NCBI GenBank assembly: GCA_029245865.1
Contig: JAQWOM010000048.1
Span: 1-64,000 of the forward strand
Direction: 5' to 3'
DNA length: 64,000 bases
DNA from: Planctomycetota bacterium
Lineage (GTDB): Bacteria > Planctomycetota > B15-G4
Shown: positions 18,804 through 60,554 of the stretch, one piece after another
Numbering within the stretch: the first letter of the stretch is position 1
Layout: each line of letters starts with the position of its first letter
Translations under genes and position numbers: made by a program
The notes under the pieces: model-generated
Databases searched by the model: none
The model's input: only the letters and a program-made list of their open reading frames with translations
What the model was told of the DNA's origin: nothing

Positions 18804-19859
18804 ATGAAGACGTTTCTTCTCGCCGGCCTGGCCGGTGTCCTCCTGATGGCCTCCGTTCAGGCCGCCGAAGAGCCCTCTCTGGGCGTCGGCGATCCTGCAC
18901 CTGCGCTCGATGTCGCAGAATGGGTCAAGGGTTCGCAGGTCTCCAACTTCGAAGCAGGCAACGTTTACCTCGTTGAGTTCTGGGCCACCTGGTGAGGCCC
19001 TTGTATTGCGAGCATGCCGCACCTCTCGCAGTTGCAGAGAGACTATAAGGACAAGCATGTAACGATCATCGGCCTGACGAGCGAAGATCGCAGGAATACG
19101 CTCGAAATGGTCAAGGAGATGGTCGAGGACAAGGGCGACGTGATGGACTTCACGGTTGCCTGGGACACCGAGCGCAAGACCAATGCGGCCTACATGGCAG
19201 CGTCGGGACAGCGTGGAATCCCTACCAGCTTTCTTGTCGATCAATCGGGCAACATCGCCTGGATCGGACATCCCATGAATGTCGATATCCCGTTGGCCAT
19301 GGTGGTCGCCGGGACATGGGATTACGAAGACGGCCCCGCGATGATGGAAGCGATTGATGAGAAGCGCACGGCCATCTACAGGGCGGCTTCGACCGACCCG
19401 GCCAAGGCTCTCGCGCTTCTCTCGGCATTCCGGGATGAGTACCCCGTGGCTTCGAAGGGTATGGAAGGTCTCGAGTTCTCGATTCTCTGCCAACTCCCGG
19501 ATCATGTGGCCGAGGCCAAGAAGGTCGGCCGAGTTCTCGTCAATGAGGCGATTGCTGAGAAGAACGCGAGTGCGCTCAATGCCTTTGCCTGGCCGCTCGT
19601 CGACCCGGAAGAGAAGCGGAAGGATCGTTTCCTCGAACTCGCCATGCTTGCTGCCAGCAAGGCGAATGAGTTCTCGGGGAACTCTGACCCGGCCATTCTG
19701 GACACCCTCGCCCGTGTGTACTTCTGGCAAGGAGATATGCAGGAAGCCCTGGAGATTCAGAGAAGGGCCGTGGAGGCTGCACCGGAAGAGATGAAGGCTT
19801 CCTTGCAGAAGGCTGCGGAAGAATACGAAGGATCTGTCGGAAATCAGCGGCGACGCTGA
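18804..19859 (+). CDS. Exported thioredoxin-like protein with in-frame TGA (putative selenocysteine) in the UGPC redox motif
   Basis: Read through a TGA at 18993-18995, this is one 351-residue protein. The ATG at 18804 has AGAGG upstream and begins a signal peptide (MKTFLLAGLAGVLLMASVQA). The TlpA/ResA/AhpC-like domain follows: VGDPAPALD near the N-terminus, then VEFWATW-TGA-GPCIASMPHL, then GIPTSFLVDQSGNIAWIGHP with the cis-Pro. The normal motif is WCGPC; TGA replaces exactly the first, nucleophilic Cys (codon 64), while the resolving Cys stays. Without readthrough the first product would be 63 residues. The C-terminal 130 residues are TPR-like helices. A paralogue at 57566 has the same TGA. 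Sec incorporation is inferred; no sel genes are in the window. Confidence 0.85.
18993..19030 (+). promoter_or_regulatory. Candidate bacterial SECIS element after the in-frame TGA
   Basis: Bacterial SECIS hairpins lie within the coding sequence just after the UGA, usually with a G near the start of the apical loop about 16-37 bases downstream. Two exclusive hairpins fit. TGCGAG (19007-19012) pairs perfectly with CTCGCA (19025-19030). Alternatively TGCG (19007-19010) pairs with CGCA (19018-19021), leaving a 7-base loop AGCATGC that starts 16 bases after the TGA with G second. The second fits the consensus better but is short. Found by eye; no energies were computed. Confidence 0.45.
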
Positions 19860-50881: not shown

Positions 50882-52465
50882 GTGATACGCCCTCTCATTA
50901 TTGCCGCGTGCTTGGCTATTCAACTGGCACCAGCGCTCGCTGCTGATGACCTGAAGCCTGGAAAGCGCGTCGGTCGGCTCCCAGCGATTAGCTTTGAGGT
51001 CGCTGAACTGTCCGCAACAGAGCGACCAGGTGCGACGCACGTCAAAGTCAAGCTTTCAAAGCCGGCCAAGCGCGATCTTCGCGTCCCTTTCACGGTCGGT
51101 GGCACGGCAACCCGCGATGAGGATTACACCCTCTCTCAAGATTCCATTCTCATTCCGAAGGGGCGGTCGTCAGTCACTATTCTGGTCGACATCATTGAAG
51201 ATGATGACTCAGGTGACGACAGGGAGTTCATCGAACTCACTCTCAACCCGCCACCAGGGCTTGCCATCACGGGGAGTTTCGGCAGGGTTCGCATCAAGGT
51301 TCTGAATCCAAAGCTGGGTGACCCTATTAATGGATTGACGCCGGCGCAGTTCGCTTCATTCAAGCGCGGCGAAAAAGTGTTCAACAAGCGCTTCTCACCT
51401 GAGGAAGGGCTTGGTCCTTTCTATAACGCGACGTCCTGCGCGTCGTGCCACAGCACTCCTGTGCCGGGTGGGGGGTCGGGCCTTTACCGCAACTTCTACC
51501 TGGCTGTCTACCAGTTCGGTCCCACACCGGCGAGCCAGAGCTCAAGCATTCCTCCTTTCTTGAGTCAGGTCGTGCCGGCTTACGGATCGGGTCCGGAACA
51601 TGCGACCACCACCGATTTCACGCTTGAAGGCGGCCGGCCGCTTCTTCCTGCGACCGTGTTCGGTTCTTTCCCTGTGCTGTCTGCGCAGCGAAATTCCATC
51701 CCTGTGTTTGGCGTGGGGTTGTTTGAAAACATCAGTGACTCGACGATCCTGTCGAATGCTGACCCTAGTGACACGAATGGTGATGGAATCAGTGGCGTAG
51801 CAAACACCAGCCTGACGGGCACGGCTATCGGGCGGCTTGGACTGAAGGCACAGGCCAACAACATCGAGTTGTTCACTCGTGGCCCGCTCCAGAATCAGAT
51901 GGGTGTGACGACTGACCCGTTCGAGGGCTTGAGCGGAATCGCCAGTATGGCGCGTTCGCCGTTGTTGCAGGTCGCAGCCGACCCGAACGATCCAACAACT
52001 GATGCCGACTCGGTCCCGGACCCTGAGATGAACAGTCAGGACCTGGGCGATCTGATCGCCTTCGGTAAGTTCTTGGCTCCGCCACCACCACCTAAGTTCG
52101 ACCAAAACGGGTTGGCCGGCAGAGCTCTGTTCCGGCAAGCGCGCTGCAACGATTGCCACATCCCTTCGCTGCCGTCCTCAAGAGGGCCGGTGAATGCCTA
52201 CACGGATTTGCTGTTGCACGACATGGGGCCGGAGCTGGCCGACAACATTCAGTTAGGCGAAGTCCCCGAATCCATTACGGAGTTCCGCACGCAACCTCTC
52301 TGGGGGATCAGCAACTTCGGGCCTTACTTGCACGACGGTCGGGCTGCGACGCTTGAAAGTGCCATCTTGCTGCACGGAGGCGAGGCGGAAACGAGCCGCG
52401 ATCTGTATATCGCACTTTCGCCATCCGACCAGAGCGACCTTCTCGCATTCTTGGAGCAACTCTAA
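50882..52465 (+). CDS. Exported Calx-beta plus DUF1111 (di-heme oxidoreductase) protein
   Basis: 527 residues from a GTG at 50882 with GGAG upstream. A signal peptide (IIAACLAIQLAPALA) is followed by a Calx-beta-type repeat (about 36-142, with GGTATRDEDYTL and DDREFIELTLN). The DUF1111/COG3488 body carries two c-type heme motifs: CASCH (186-190) and CNDCH (422-426). NGDGISG and a Pro-rich hinge lie between. It is a probable periplasmic electron-transfer or peroxidase-like enzyme. It overlaps the second DUF1111 gene by one base. Confidence 0.88.
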   Translation: MIRPLIIAACLAIQLAPALAADDLKPGKRVGRLPAISFEVAELSATERPGATHVKVKLSKPAKRDLRVPFTVGGTATRDEDYTLSQDSILIPKGRSSVTILVDIIEDDDSGDDREFIELTLNPPPGLAITGSFGRVRIKVLNPKLGDPINGLTPAQFASFKRGEKVFNKRFSPEEGLGPFYNATSCASCHSTPVPGGGSGLYRNFYLAVYQFGPTPASQSSSIPPFLSQVVPAYGSGPEHATTTDFTLEGGRPLLPATVFGSFPVLSAQRNSIPVFGVGLFENISDSTILSNADPSDTNGDGISGVANTSLTGTAIGRLGLKAQANNIELFTRGPLQNQMGVTTDPFEGLSGIASMARSPLLQVAADPNDPTTDADSVPDPEMNSQDLGDLIAFGKFLAPPPPPKFDQNGLAGRALFRQARCNDCHIPSLPSSRGPVNAYTDLLLHDMGPELADNIQLGEVPESITEFRTQPLWGISNFGPYLHDGRAATLESAILLHGGEAETSRDLYIALSPSDQSDLLAFLEQL

Positions 52466-53619
52466 TGAGCATCCGCATCTTGAGATCTTTCGCGGTCTTG
52501 CTCGGATCCGCCGGGATTTGTGTCGCCGCAACCGTGGGCGGTGGCGGTACTGAAGCCCCTGCTCCCGGTGAACTGGGTGGTCCGACGACAGGCTTGAGTC
52601 CCACAGAGATGGGGACATGGCTTGCAGGTGAGGCTCAGTTCGATCGCGCCTTTCACATCGCAGACGGTGTTGGCACTCCGGAATTCAATGCCGAAAGTTG
52701 TCGTGCTTGTCACCGAGACCCGGTCCTCGGCGGTGCCGGTGGACTTGAGCTGAACGTGTCTCGATTCGGATTCGATAATGGCGGACTTGGTCCCTTCCAG
52801 GATCTGCCCGGAGGGCAAGGCCTTAGCAAGCTGAGGCCGCCGATGATCAACGATCGGGAAAACTACCCGGTCCAGGCTGATGTCTTCGAACAGCGTCAAA
52901 CTCCATCGCTCTTTGGCTTGGGTTTGCTCGAGAGCATTCCCGAGGCAAACATCCTGGCGAATGAAGACCCCGGAGATAGCAACGGGGACGGAATCTTCGG
53001 TGTGGCGCGAGTGTTGATGATCGACGGCCTGCCAGAGGTCGGTCGGTTTGGCTGGAAGAGCCAGGTGCCCACGCTGGAGGACTTTGTTCGCGATGCCATG
53101 GCTGGTGAGGCCGGCATCACCACTCCGTCTGTTGGGCGGGGCTTTGCACTCAGTGCTGATGCCGATTCGGTGGCCGATCCAGAGTTTTCTGAAGCCGAAG
53201 TCGATGAGATGGCGTTCTATCTCGAGAACCTCGGCCCGCCCTTGCGAGTGGGCTCCGTGGCGCCAGAAGTGGTGCAGGGTGAAATCCTGTTCACGGCTCT
53301 GTTGTGCAGTACCTGCCATATCCCCAACATCAATGGGGCCGTCGATCCGGTTTTCGCTTACACCGACCTTCTGTTGCATGACGTCATGCCAACCGATTAT
53401 CGCGGGATGGAAGAACCTGGCGCGGGCAATGGCATGTTCCGAACACCTCCGCTCTGGGGTATCCGGCACTCCGCGCCCTACATGCACGATGGTCGAGCAC
53501 GTGGTTTGCGCGAAGCCATTCTGGCTCACGAAAGCGAAGGCCAGGCTTCGTCCGATGCCTTCGTGCTTCTGAGTGAGTCGGAACAGAGCGCCCTGATCGC
53601 CTTCCTGAGAGACCTCTAG
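52465..53619 (+). CDS. DUF1111 di-heme oxidoreductase-like protein
   Basis: 384 residues with a signal-like N-terminus (ILRSFAVLLGSAGICVAA). It carries two CxxCH motifs, CRACH (79-83) and CSTCH (281-285), with DSNGDGIFGVARV and LWGIRHSAPYMHDGRA as in its upstream neighbour, so the pair are tandem paralogues. The ATG at 52465 overlaps the upstream TAA by one base, indicating coupled translation and perhaps a heteromeric complex. Substrate is not known. Apart from the heme and DUF1111 features I recognise no further domain. Confidence 0.88.
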   Translation: MSIRILRSFAVLLGSAGICVAATVGGGGTEAPAPGELGGPTTGLSPTEMGTWLAGEAQFDRAFHIADGVGTPEFNAESCRACHRDPVLGGAGGLELNVSRFGFDNGGLGPFQDLPGGQGLSKLRPPMINDRENYPVQADVFEQRQTPSLFGLGLLESIPEANILANEDPGDSNGDGIFGVARVLMIDGLPEVGRFGWKSQVPTLEDFVRDAMAGEAGITTPSVGRGFALSADADSVADPEFSEAEVDEMAFYLENLGPPLRVGSVAPEVVQGEILFTALLCSTCHIPNINGAVDPVFAYTDLLLHDVMPTDYRGMEEPGAGNGMFRTPPLWGIRHSAPYMHDGRARGLREAILAHESEGQASSDAFVLLSESEQSALIAFLRDL

Positions 53620-56740: not shown

Positions 56741-57385
56741 GTGAACGAAGTCCTTTTCACGTACATCGCGTTCATCATGTCTGTTTTCGCGATGATGAAC
56801 CCGCTTGCGGCGGTTCCGATCTTTTTGAGCATCTCCAAAGATATTCCGGAGGCTGAGCGCAAGAAGATCCCGTTCAAGACAGCGACTGCAGCATTCCTGA
56901 TCATGCTGACCGCCTTCGTGATCGGGCAAGCCATCCTGGATCTCTTTTCGGTGGGGATCCCCGCGCTTCGCCTTGCAGGGGGCATGGTGTTGATGGCTAT
57001 GGGTTGGACCATGCTCAACGTGCAGACAAGTCGGACAAAGCAAACAACTGAAGAAGCTGAAGAGGCTGTTGAAAAAGATTCAATCGCCATCATTCCTCTG
57101 GCCATTCCCATTTCCGCAGGACCGGGCGCCATTAGCTTGATGATTATCGCAGCGTCCTACCCCAACGAGATCGAAGGTCGAGTTGCCATCATGTTTGCAG
57201 TGTTCTTGGTTTGCGTGCTGCTCTGGCTTTTCTTGCGAATGGCCGACCGGATCGGAAACTTTCTCGGTTCTACGGGACTCAACATCATCACGCGGCTCAT
57301 GGGATTGCTCATGCTCGGGGTGTCTATCGAGTTCATCACGACAGGCCTCATAGAGAAATTCCCGATTCTCGGGCAGGCTGGGTGA
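56741..57385 (+). CDS. marC: MarC family integral membrane protein
   Basis: 214 residues with six helices. It opens with a GTG at 56741 (VNEVLFTYIAFIMSVFAMMNPLAAVPIFLS). NPLAAVPIFL near the N-terminus and PLAIPISAGPGAISLMI mid-protein are the characteristic MarC NPxG/NP-type repeats, followed by GLLMLGVSIEFITTG. The function of MarC remains unclear; it was once proposed to affect antibiotic resistance. It is divergent from the GlsB-like gene. Confidence 0.9.
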   Translation: MNEVLFTYIAFIMSVFAMMNPLAAVPIFLSISKDIPEAERKKIPFKTATAAFLIMLTAFVIGQAILDLFSVGIPALRLAGGMVLMAMGWTMLNVQTSRTKQTTEEAEEAVEKDSIAIIPLAIPISAGPGAISLMIIAASYPNEIEGRVAIMFAVFLVCVLLWLFLRMADRIGNFLGSTGLNIITRLMGLLMLGVSIEFITTGLIEKFPILGQAG

Positions 57386-57565
57386 CGCCTGAGATGGCTG
57401 CGGCAAGAGCGGCCGAGAGGCAGGAAGGCGCGGATGGCCTGCGAAAGGACTCTTCGCCGCCATTTTTTCCGCGAGGCTCCCCCTCAGTCAGACTCCGGCT
57501 AAACTGAGGCGCTTCCAGAACAGTCGTTCTGTTGCGGATCTCTCTCAACGATGGAGGAGGCGTAC

Positions 57566-58534
57566 ATGTTGTCCATGGTTCTTGCCGGAGGGCTTGCTCT
57601 CGCGGCCGTACTCCCCGGAGACAAGGTGGTCCCTCAGGTGGGAGACCCGGCCCCCTCGTTCGAGGGCAAATGGATGTCCTACGAGGACTCGTCCCTCGCC
57701 GAACTCGAGGGCAAGCTGGTTTTCATCGAGTTCTGGCGAACCTGGTGAGGCCCCTGCAAGTCGCAGGTTCCTCACCTGAATAAGCTCTGGAAAGAGCATC
57801 GGGATGAGGGACTTGTGGTCGTTGGCGTGACCAACGAATCGAAAGGTTTGGTCGAGAGAACAGTTGAGAAGAACCGGATGGAGTTTCCGGTTGCCATGGT
57901 CAAGACGCCCGAAGAAGCGAACTTCGGGATTCGAGGGTTTCCCAGTTCTTACCTGCTGGATGTCGACGGAACGATTCTCTGGAAAGGTCACCCGGCGAGC
58001 TTTGAAAAAGAATATCCGTCCTCGCGCTTGGCCAATGACCTGAAGCGAACATCGACCTTTCCGCCGGTTCCGGAAAAGAGCAAATCTCTGCTCAGTAAAT
58101 ATGCTGATTCCGGAAATTTCTCTGGAGCGTACGTCGCGGCAACTCGAGAGCTAAAGAGGCGCCCTGAAAACGAACCGCTTCAGGAGTTTGCGAATTCGAT
58201 TGAAGAGATGCTCAAGTCACGGCTCGAACTCGCACAGGCCGCAAGAGATCGCGGTGACTACGGGCAATCGATGGAGATGTACTCTTCTCTCGCGAAGAAG
58301 TTTGCGGGTGTTCCAGGCGCAAAAGATGCAGACACCGCTGCAGGAGAGATTAGTAAAGATAAAGAAGCAAAGGATGACCTTGCGGCAGCCAAGAAGTGGC
58401 GGACTGCCATGGTGAGTTGGCGCAAGGGCGATTTCGACAAGGCGCTCAAGAGCGTTAAGTCGATTGCAAAAAAGTATGGAGACACGGCAACTGGCCAGCG
58501 GGCTGAAGAGATGCTGTCGCGTCATGCCGACTGA
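57566..58534 (+). CDS. Exported thioredoxin-like protein with in-frame TGA (putative selenocysteine), paralogue of 18804
   Basis: Read through the TGA at 57746-57748 this gives 322 residues. The ATG at 57566 has GGAGGAGG five bases upstream and a short signal-like N-terminus (MLSMVLAGGLALAAVL). The thioredoxin-fold motif reads FIEFWRTW-TGA-GPCKSQVPHL, with TGA at codon 61 where the first Cys of WCGPC belongs; GFPSSYLLDVDGTILWKGHP carries the cis-Pro. Readthrough is the only way to make a full domain: the frame after the TGA stays open to 58534. The remainder is helical, TPR-like and Lys/Glu-rich. It shares domain order with the 18804 protein, so the pair are paralogues. Confidence 0.85.
57744..57776 (+). 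promoter_or_regulatory. Candidate bacterial SECIS hairpin spanning the in-frame TGA
   Basis: GGTGAGG (57744-57750, containing the TGA) pairs perfectly with CCTCACC (57770-57776). Inside, CCTGC (57753-57757) pairs with GCAGG (57763-57767), leaving loop AAGTC with a G. This nested 7+5-base hairpin is strong, but its apical loop begins only 10 bases after the TGA, nearer than the usual 16-37. A competing stem CAGGT (57764-57768) with ACCTG (57774-57778) has a loop without G. The fit to known SECIS spacing is therefore imperfect. Confidence 0.45.
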
Positions 58535-58737: not shown

Positions 58738-58767
58738 CCATTCAGGTCCCGATTCACGCCTGAATGG
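58738..58767. promoter_or_regulatory. Inverted repeat CCATTCAGG...CCTGAATGG
   Basis: A perfect 9-base inverted repeat with a 12-base spacer (58747-58758) ends 53 bases before the MauG start. It is long enough to be a regulator site or an untranslated-region hairpin. It differs in sequence from the palindrome 14 bases upstream. Confidence 0.45.
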
Positions 58768-58820
58768 CGATCGACACCTCACGATGGCCGTTTATCTCCC
58801 ACGCCAATGGAGTGCAAAGA

Positions 58821-60554
58821 ATGACTCTTCCAGATCGAGTCCGAGCACGCTTCCGCGTCTTCTTGTCCCTGGCCGTTCTCTCTATGGCCACGCAGGGTGC
58901 TTTCGCATTTCAGGGGCCACCTCCGCCTCCCCCTATTCCTCCGGCACCTCCTTTGCCTCCCGTGCTCGCCCCGATCGGAAACCCGATCACAGAGCCCAAA
59001 CGAGTTCTGGGAAAAATCCTTTTCTGGGAGGAGCAGCTTTCGAGCGACAACACCGTGTCTTGCGGAACCTGCCATCTTCCGGAAGTTGCAGGTGCTGATC
59101 CCCGTCTCGGGAACCATCCGGGTTTTGATGGAATCTTCGGCACCGCCGACGATGTGATCGGATCTCCAGGGGTTATCCGTTCCGATGTGTCGAACGCATT
59201 TCTTCCCGATGCGACCTTCGGTCTTGAGCCGCAGGTCACGGGGCGTGCGGCTCCTACATACTTCAGCATGACTCAGTATTCCCCGGAGATGTTCTGGGAT
59301 GGTCGAGGCTCAGGCACTTTTCTCGATCCTCAGACGGGTGCAGTCGTGCTTGCCGCTGGTGGATCTTTGGAGAGTCAAGCTGTCGGACCCATCTTGAATG
59401 CGACTGAGATGGGCCATGACGGGCGAACCTGGGCTGAGGTGATTGCAAAGCTGCAGGATGTGACTCCGCTTCGCCTCGCGACAAATATTCCTCCAGACAT
59501 GCTCGGTGCCCTGAGCGTCTCGCCGACCTACCCGGACTTGTTCCTGAGTGCTTTCGGAACGTCTGCCATCACTGCCGAAAGAATTGGTCGAGCGATTGCG
59601 ACATACGAACGAACTCTCGTGCCGAATCAGTCTCCGTACGACCTTCTGGCTGCCGGGGTTCCGGGATCATTGACACCTGGGCAGTTGGCGGGGTTCAACT
59701 CGCTGGTTGGCTCTCTTTGTGCCGTTTGCCATACGCCTCCTTTCTTCACGGACTTCCGATTTCACAACCTGGGCCTGAGACCTGGGCCCGAAGACATCGG
59801 GCGTCAATTTGTCACCGGAGACCTGGCCGACCTGGGGCGCTTCAGGACGCCCAGCTTGCGCAACGCGGGTCAGAAAACTGCGCTGATGCACGTGGGCTGG
59901 GTGACGGATGTCCGCGATGCGATCGACTTCTATAATGCGCCCGCGTTTCCGGCGACCGCAGCCGGTCACACGCAGTTCACAGCAGACCAGAGCCTCATTC
60001 CGGCTCCGGGTGGACCGGTACCGATTCAGAGCATTTCAGTTCCCGCGGGAGCGATTCCGGGGTTGGTCGATTTCATTTCAAATGCTCTGACCGATCCACG
60101 GACCGTGTCCGGGACTTTCCCATTCGACCGGCCGACGCTGCACTCGGAGTCCGTCGTTCCAAATCCGGAGATCTTTGGAGCCTCGAGTGGTGGGTCATCT
60201 GGCCCGATGATGCTTGCCAACACACCTCTCGCTCGAGCGAACCCTGACTTCAAGATCGGTATCGGAAAGGCTACGGCAGGTGCCACAGCTTGGCTTTTCA
60301 CAACGCTCTCTCCCGCGCCCTCCGGAAGCATGGTGGCCGGCGTGCCGCTTCACCTTGACCTCGGAACGATGATTCTCGTGCGCGGTGTGGTTCTCGGTGG
60401 GACGGGGTCGGATGGGCATGCAACACTCCTCGTTGGCATACCAGACGATCCGGCCTACACAGGCCTTGAGTTTTACGGGCAGTGGTTCGTGCAAGATCCG
60501 GGGGCGCCGTTCGGACTCAGGTCGACCGAAGGAGCTCGCTGGCTCGGCCTCTGA
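58821..60554 (+). CDS. MauG/cytochrome c peroxidase-type diheme protein
   Basis: 577 residues from the ATG at 58821 with GGAG upstream. A signal peptide (LSLAVLSMATQGAFAF) is followed by a polyproline run (PPPPPPIPPAPPLPP region) and the diheme peroxidase domain. Heme motifs are CGTCH (81-85) and CAVCH (300-304), with AAPTYFSMTQ and FWDGRGSGTFLDPQ as in CcpA/MauG enzymes. It should be periplasmic and reduce peroxide or act on a partner. The last 100 residues (GSDGHATLLVGIPDD, then FYGQWFVQDPGAPFG) form a beta-rich exported-protein tail, different from the W-DLGGG type. Confidence 0.88.
   Translation: MTLPDRVRARFRVFLSLAVLSMATQGAFAFQGPPPPPPIPPAPPLPPVLAPIGNPITEPKRVLGKILFWEEQLSSDNTVSCGTCHLPEVAGADPRLGNHPGFDGIFGTADDVIGSPGVIRSDVSNAFLPDATFGLEPQVTGRAAPTYFSMTQYSPEMFWDGRGSGTFLDPQTGAVVLAAGGSLESQAVGPILNATEMGHDGRTWAEVIAKLQDVTPLRLATNIPPDMLGALSVSPTYPDLFLSAFGTSAITAERIGRAIATYERTLVPNQSPYDLLAAGVPGSLTPGQLAGFNSLVGSLCAVCHTPPFFTDFRFHNLGLRPGPEDIGRQFVTGDLADLGRFRTPSLRNAGQKTALMHVGWVTDVRDAIDFYNAPAFPATAAGHTQFTADQSLIPAPGGPVPIQSISVPAGAIPGLVDFISNALTDPRTVSGTFPFDRPTLHSESVVPNPEIFGASSGGSSGPMMLANTPLARANPDFKIGIGKATAGATAWLFTTLSPAPSGSMVAGVPLHLDLGTMILVRGVVLGGTGSDGHATLLVGIPDDPAYTGLEFYGQWFVQDPGAPFGLRSTEGARWLGL

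Follow-up and report, generated by a model that had tools for sequence, protein, structure and literature searches.

An in-frame TGA at the active site of a thioredoxin-fold gene, probably read as selenocysteine, in a large TlpA/ResA-like family with an additional C-terminal domain

The stretch of DNA analysed here (the window, 64,000 nucleotides) contains a gene, designated gene B, that is interrupted by a TGA codon in the motif IEFWRTW-TGA-GPCKSQVPHL, raising the question as to whether this codon is read as selenocysteine (Sec) or whether the interruption has some other origin. Direct reading of the sequence confirms both the coordinates and the reading frame assigned to gene B by an earlier sequence-only reading: past the TGA at codon 61 the frame remains open for 261 aa up to a terminal TGA, and the UGPC that would result is a UxxC motif at the active site. 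A second member of the same family, gene A, lies in the window with a TGA at the same motif position, 38.75 kb upstream of that of gene B; the features of both genes are collected in Table 1. The source genome (3.33 Mb, 90.7% complete) is a 57-contig assembly, and the TGA is read from this assembly rather than from sequencing reads. From the sequence comparisons set out below, the best reading is that gene B encodes a UxxC redoxin selenoprotein, TlpA/ResA-like, belonging to a large family that contains an additional domain.

Table 1. Positions of genes A and B, their parts and their neighbours within the window.
Feature	Position	Strand	Basis and remarks
Gene B, coding sequence of a probable Sec-containing protein, thioredoxin-like, 322 aa when TGA61 is counted as Sec	57566..58534	+	Direct reading; family-profile match
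Start codon of gene B	ATG 57566	+	Direct reading; alternative in-frame ATG 57551 possible
Shine-Dalgarno-like sequence GGAGGAGG	57553..57560	+	5 nt ahead of ATG 57566; direct reading
Hydrophobic N-terminus, probable export signal	57566..57619	+	By eye; atypical, no Lys/Arg before the hydrophobic stretch
Thioredoxin-fold domain, TlpA/ResA-like, residues 25-142	57638..57991	+	AhpC-TSA and Redoxin Pfam models
In-frame TGA, probably read as Sec 61	57746..57748	+	Direct reading and family comparison
Cys64 codon, probable resolving cysteine of UGPC	57755..57757	+	Invariant in 50 aligned members
Pro126 codon, cis-proline position of the thioredoxin fold	57941..57943	+	Invariant in 50 aligned members
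C-terminal domain, conserved, predicted all-helical, residues about 150-322, weak TPR resemblance	58013..58531	+	Alignment; model
Terminal TGA of gene B, read as stop	58532..58534	+	Best model hairpin beyond it only -1.8 kcal/mol
Hairpin CCTGC-AAGTC-GCAGG, possible atypical SECIS	57753..57767	+	9 nt from UGA to loop, too close for the model; -10.2 kcal/mol with flanks
Alternative hairpin CAGGT-TCCTC-ACCTG	57764..57778	+	20 nt from UGA to loop, no loop G, -6.3 kcal/mol; fails on loop and energy
MarC gene, directly upstream of gene B	56741-57385		Neighbouring gene
Di-haem peroxidase-family genes (DHOR; CCP_MauG) near gene B	52465-53619; 58764-60554		Second directly downstream of gene B
Gene A, other family member with TGA at the same motif position	18804..19859	+	Direct reading; profile
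TGA within the frame of gene A, at residue 64 in WATW-U-GPC	18993..18995	+	Direct reading

Gene B matches Pfam models PF00578 (67.2 bits, cut-off 26) and PF08534 (48.2 bits, cut-off 26.6), and scores 322.6 bits against the profile of its own family, of which it is one row, over positions 5-325 of 328. The best solved structures for its thioredoxin domain are ResA and DsbE, and an AlphaFold2 model built from a 10-row alignment (mean pLDDT 73, pTM 0.49) has an all-helical domain on the C-terminal side of a thioredoxin fold, with ten-residue means of 76-95 at residues 221-320 and 47-53 at residues 161-200. When 50 of the 67 listed full-length members are aligned, U/C61, C64 and P126 (gene B numbering) are invariant, the last of these at what we take to be the cis-proline position of thioredoxin folds, and the C-terminal region is conserved. 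The number of codons following the site is nearly constant in members with TGA (U members; quartiles 261-268), and TPR models give only weak matches, in few members. The 50 matches listed from a Foldseek comparison with viral proteins are thioredoxin-fold, uncharacterised or unnamed proteins.

Judged by eye, the N-termini of the homologues displayed mostly resemble canonical signal peptides. That of gene B is atypical and without the usual positive charge, so that for this protein we can only infer export; of the earlier proposal of a conserved extracytoplasmic selenoprotein family, the conserved family is supported, and the location of the gene B product itself is less firm. The neighbours of gene B offer no clue to mechanism, and the flanking ORFs of 29 relatives (69 of 74 scanned) reveal no partner common to the set, a GAPDH C-terminal domain occurring in five and DUF1573 in three.

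A search with gene B over 148 genomes gave matches in 146, from which the best listed loci per genome were used, further matches being present. Of the 29 relatives ranked highest by the automatic search, each from a different genome, 25 have TGA at the aligned site, three have Cys and one has Lys (TGA in 26 of 30 with gene B counted); the occurrence of TGA at one and the same codon in genes A and B is therefore beyond chance, as had been argued from the window alone, and the UGPC or CGPC anticipated at the site in homologues was found. Over 103 distinct sites there are 83 with TGA, 18 with Cys, one with Lys and one with Ser, a chosen sample, since 55 of the 60 extra loci were picked because the search row showed TGA; of these 55 only one (L098, in genome G017) has Cys at the site. 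This count omits L001-L019, which lie outside the family, and L025, a copy of gene B, and follows the merging of two duplicate-DNA rows (106 to 104) and of a second alignment of L050 (to 103). Ninety-five of the sites are from the phylum and eight are from other phyla, all eight being Cys.

Searching contigs with gene B recovered nine distant relatives (L038-L046) and no near one. All nine have Cys at the site, in the motif WRTWCGAC; eight are recorded as Victivallales, Lentisphaerae, Kiritimatiellae or Verrucomicrobia and one as 'bacterium'. The eight that were aligned (L043 is absent from that alignment) are without the helical C-terminal domain.

TGA sites occur in 50 of the 148 genomes sampled, spread over 26 families. 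In 48 of them SelA scores above its cut-off, and in the remaining two, G033 and G092, SelB scores above its own; SelA is found in 58 of the remaining 98 genomes (Fisher p 6e-7 for the comparison, ignoring kinship). In five genomes only Cys sites were read, of which three (G001, G052, G086) have SelA and two (G017, G147) have none, with SelB over cut-off absent from G017 as well; because three of the five keep SelA, having the Cys form does not go hand in hand with having lost the machinery. UGA is also the terminal stop in 32 of the 83 U members, and in gene B, so that UGA is not globally recoded.

Two relatives have neither Sec nor Cys at the active site, L050 (G004:C111) having Lys and L136 (G063:C9) Ser; they match gene B over residues 7-320 and 37-315 respectively, and the substitutions suggest that redox function may have been lost. 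Other genomes have several copies: G034 has at least five TGA sites (L084, L095, L122, L126, L130) and G127 four TGA UGPC paralogues (L061, L102, L112, L120), apparently a lineage-specific expansion within family f24.

Genes A and B both terminate in TGA and both read (R/A)TW-TGA-GPC, and the 14 bases around the TGA (ACCTGGTGAGGCCC) are identical between them. The 11-base core TGGTGAGGNCC, which was defined on this very finding, is present only twice in the window vs 0.09 times expected, and two occurrences were seen in one of 100 shuffles. The earlier reading had pointed to the shared TGA-GGC-CC context; the identity is real, the bases being largely imposed by the T-W-U-G-P codons.

The two genes had also been regarded as paralogues. 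They do belong to a common family, but a recent duplication giving rise to the pair is rejected by a quick-method tree of the 103 rows (SH-aLRT support only), which places them on separate branches, each with a Cys protein as its sister. The sister of gene A is a Cys paralogue within its own genome (SH-aLRT 99), and that of gene B is L048, from the same family (SH-aLRT 98; 41% identity), whose site codon is TGC, so that one base change separates gene B from a Cys protein. Cys homologues such as L048, a single 317-aa frame, run through the site, so that the refuting pattern named by the earlier reading, homologues beginning past the TGA, is not seen. The U/C label requires seven changes on the tree, at least five of them forced by the starred branches.

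The genome that contains gene B encodes the Sec machinery. SelA scores 462 bits and SelB, on contig C26, 350.3 bits when its in-frame neighbour is included (cut-off 242); SelD scores 339 bits and itself has one in-frame TGA, in the motif NCAG-U-AAK; and a tRNA-Sec scores 75.5 bits with the anticodon TCA (UCA). Both selB and selC, on whose presence the sequence-only reading depended, are thus found together with selA and selD, and its proposal of Sec in gene B is supported by this machinery and by the alignment of TGA with Cys. Among the eight best-scoring loci of the tRNA-Sec model, a smaller set than a full tRNA survey would give, the only UCA anticodon is that of tRNA-Sec, the others being Ser, Leu, Tyr, Gly, Thr and Arg. 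A DsbD gene (618 aa) is also encoded. The partial 16S gene matches the planctomycete probe PLA46 exactly, EUB338 with one mismatch, and PLA886 and EUB338-II with two each, which supports, without proving, the planctomycete origin assumed in the earlier reading.

Do the sequences following the site contain the hairpin expected of a bacterial SECIS (bSECIS)? Using constraints taken from a figure legend of PMC13188914, we find that 56 of the 83 TGA members and two of the 18 Cys members pass the published model, whereas a synonymous-codon null gives 18.05 +/- 3.2 passes with a maximum of 25 in 60 runs; L050 and L136 enter none of the SECIS counts, and because the members are related the figures are not independent. 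The loop lies 16-21 nt past the UGA in 45 of the 83 U members, vs 76 of 414 in-frame controls and two of 18 Cys members, and the same spacing follows terminal stops in 9 of 37 (TGA), 7 of 28 (TAG) and 0 of 13 (TAA) cases. The broad model also passes after 46 of 78 ordinary stops (25 of 37 TGA, 18 of 28 TAG and 3 of 13 TAA), probably through terminators in non-coding DNA, and since it is unspecific in this setting we rely on controls that take the coding sequence into account and on a spacing of 16-21 nt. Plain folding energy over the 39 nt after the site was discarded as a measure, giving no separation (mean z -0.80 for U members, n=83, and -0.68 for Cys members, n=18; other windows of the U genes give -0.17 to -0.31); it is by loop position, not folding energy, that U and Cys members are told apart. 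No consensus structure emerged from RNAalifold on an ungapped alignment, and Rfam models found no SECIS in 57700-57850, the one match being to a microRNA model and well short of the gathering threshold. At the level of the family, the comparisons nonetheless support a SECIS signal.

Gene B itself has no hairpin that agrees with the published model. Gene A misses it slightly (-7.3 vs -7.5 kcal/mol), whereas L027 and L031, which are likewise TGA genes in this genome, pass. Of the two hairpins after the TGA of gene B (Table 1), the strong one is too close and the weak one has no loop G, and we therefore regard its SECIS as unproven and possibly atypical. At the fixed place of the weaker hairpin a perfect 5-bp stem is present in 13 of the 83 TGA members (two expectations obtained for this count are 4.4 and 0.8 +/- 0.8) and in 0 of 18 Cys members, formed by several different stem sequences. 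According to PMC13188914 a subset of bacterial selenoprotein genes fails the bSECIS model, and for this reason we have not treated the hairpin as defining.

Gene B could instead be a Cys-type gene in which the active-site Cys codon has become TGA, whether by an error in sequencing or by a nonsense mutation that arose recently, an origin that would fit the TGC of its nearest relative L048, the single base that separates TGC from TGA, and the lack of a canonical SECIS. Such an event would have had to strike precisely the codon at which 25 of the 29 top relatives from the automatic search have TGA, in a frame otherwise intact over its 322 codons and in a genome where gene A has the same feature and the Sec machinery is present, and we consider it unlikely. 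Still less probable is the production of two separate polypeptides, a secreted peptide of 60 aa and, initiated at GTG 57815, a protein of 239 aa: a mechanical ORF list does give 57815-58534, but this later frame would miss the whole active site, the Cys homologues cross the site in one frame, and the length following it in U members is close to constant.

tRNAs that read UGA, other than tRNA-Sec, are known, and the replacement of Cys by UGA, along with the missing canonical SECIS of gene B, might be accounted for if another tRNA inserted Cys or Trp. We give this scarcely any credence, since tRNA-Sec has the sole UCA anticodon among the eight loci noted above, UGA serves as the terminal stop in 32 of the 83 U members, and the U form accompanies SelA/SelB. 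We hold it very probable that the product of gene B is an exported oxidoreductase of the thioredoxin fold that attacks through Sec, and that this Sec enters at UGA 57746-57748 by means of the SelA, SelB, SelD and tRNA-Sec of the same genome, a reading supported by comparison through the exchange of TGA and Cys, the machinery, the fold and the family-level SECIS signal.

ResA, TlpA and CcmG (DsbE) are extracytoplasmic thiol-disulfide reductases. The solved structures and the NCBIfam models that best fit the thioredoxin domain of gene B belong to this group; gene B differs in having UGPC instead of CxxC and a further domain some 170 residues long, and it falls below the curated cut-offs for ResA (NF002854; 84.2 vs 170 bits), DsbE (37 vs 123) and TlpA (41 vs 230). 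The Sec-type ResA-like model NF041054 (WAxxUGC) aligns with gene B residues 37-193 at 45.1 bits, below its cut-off of 300 bits, and has UGC where gene B has UGPC. NF041382, a VPGUxxT thioredoxin-like (seleno)protein, type 1, has a different active-site motif, and gene B scores 16.7 bits vs a cut-off of 350, but towards its C-terminus the model is similar to the C-terminal domain of the present family: it matches 22 of 50 members (best E 6.6e-21), and in gene B, L064 and L058 only that C-terminal part aligns. Among the NCBIfam models listed for gene B, gene A and ten further members, none exceeds its cut-off.

The closest published kinds of protein are in Table 1 of the 2026 review PMC13188914, which includes a Prx-like thiol:disulfide oxidoreductase (PF00578, UxxC) and a Redoxin family selenoprotein (PF08534, UxxC). 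Gene B shares these Pfam domains, over cut-offs, and the UxxC motif; compared by table description, it differs in that these rows name no helical C-terminal domain. Within their available texts, PMC13188914 has no match for 'Planctomyc' and PMC12013277 none for 'thioredoxin' or 'Planctomyc', while the available portions of PMC1794560 and PMC4807772 describe, respectively, a survey with Prx-like thiol:disulfide oxidoreductase and thioredoxin selenoproteins, and planctomycete selenoproteins with Sec machinery. Among the titles and abstract openings listed by the literature searches, neither such a domain arrangement nor a planctomycete-wide UGPC family was seen, which is weak evidence of absence with most subscription papers lying outside this scope. 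The general kind of protein is known already, and the subfamily is large and apparently little described.

By analogy with TlpA/ResA-like thioredoxin proteins, we propose as the likely chemistry that the selenolate of Sec61 would attack a disulfide or an oxidised thiol of an extracytoplasmic partner and that Cys64 would then resolve the mixed bond. The resulting Se-S bond might then be reduced again with electrons from the membrane, in the simplest case from the membrane protein DsbD that this genome encodes, and the helical C-terminal domain probably binds or selects the partner.

AhpC-TSA domain matches number 17 in the genome, six of them with one in-frame TGA, including genes A and B. L022 (G000:C28:12261-12656) is an AhpC-type peroxiredoxin with its TGA in TFV-U-ATEF, which we take to be the peroxidatic position, followed by a strong hairpin (-17.7 kcal/mol). 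L027 (G000:C47:3482-3823) and L031 (G000:C56:111746-112108) are shorter thioredoxin-fold genes with in-frame TGAs in TST-U-RGC and FYH-U-GAC, and L023 (G000:C51:26405-26773) is an AhpC-TSA match with one in-frame TGA. Standard gene calling would truncate such genes at the TGA.

We also advance, as a tentative idea on which we would not yet insist, a wider view in which much of the phylum, planctomycete by 16S probe match, would use selenium in extracytoplasmic thiol redox. The proteins concerned would be secreted thioredoxins having UGPC and a helical domain devoted to partner binding, a single genome containing five TGA copies or more; many would have a SECIS at a fixed position and a minority, such as genes A and B, a second, non-canonical class of SECIS that SelB accepts. 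If the Sec reading is right, many genomes of the phylum (50 of the 148 sampled have at least one TGA site) carry probably secreted selenoenzymes that ordinary annotation is likely to miss. Genes A and B do not have the usual hairpin and would be a test of how large a part of a SECIS this SelB requires, and the repeated exchange of Sec and Cys between close relatives would constitute a natural test of what selenium adds to extracytoplasmic thiol chemistry.
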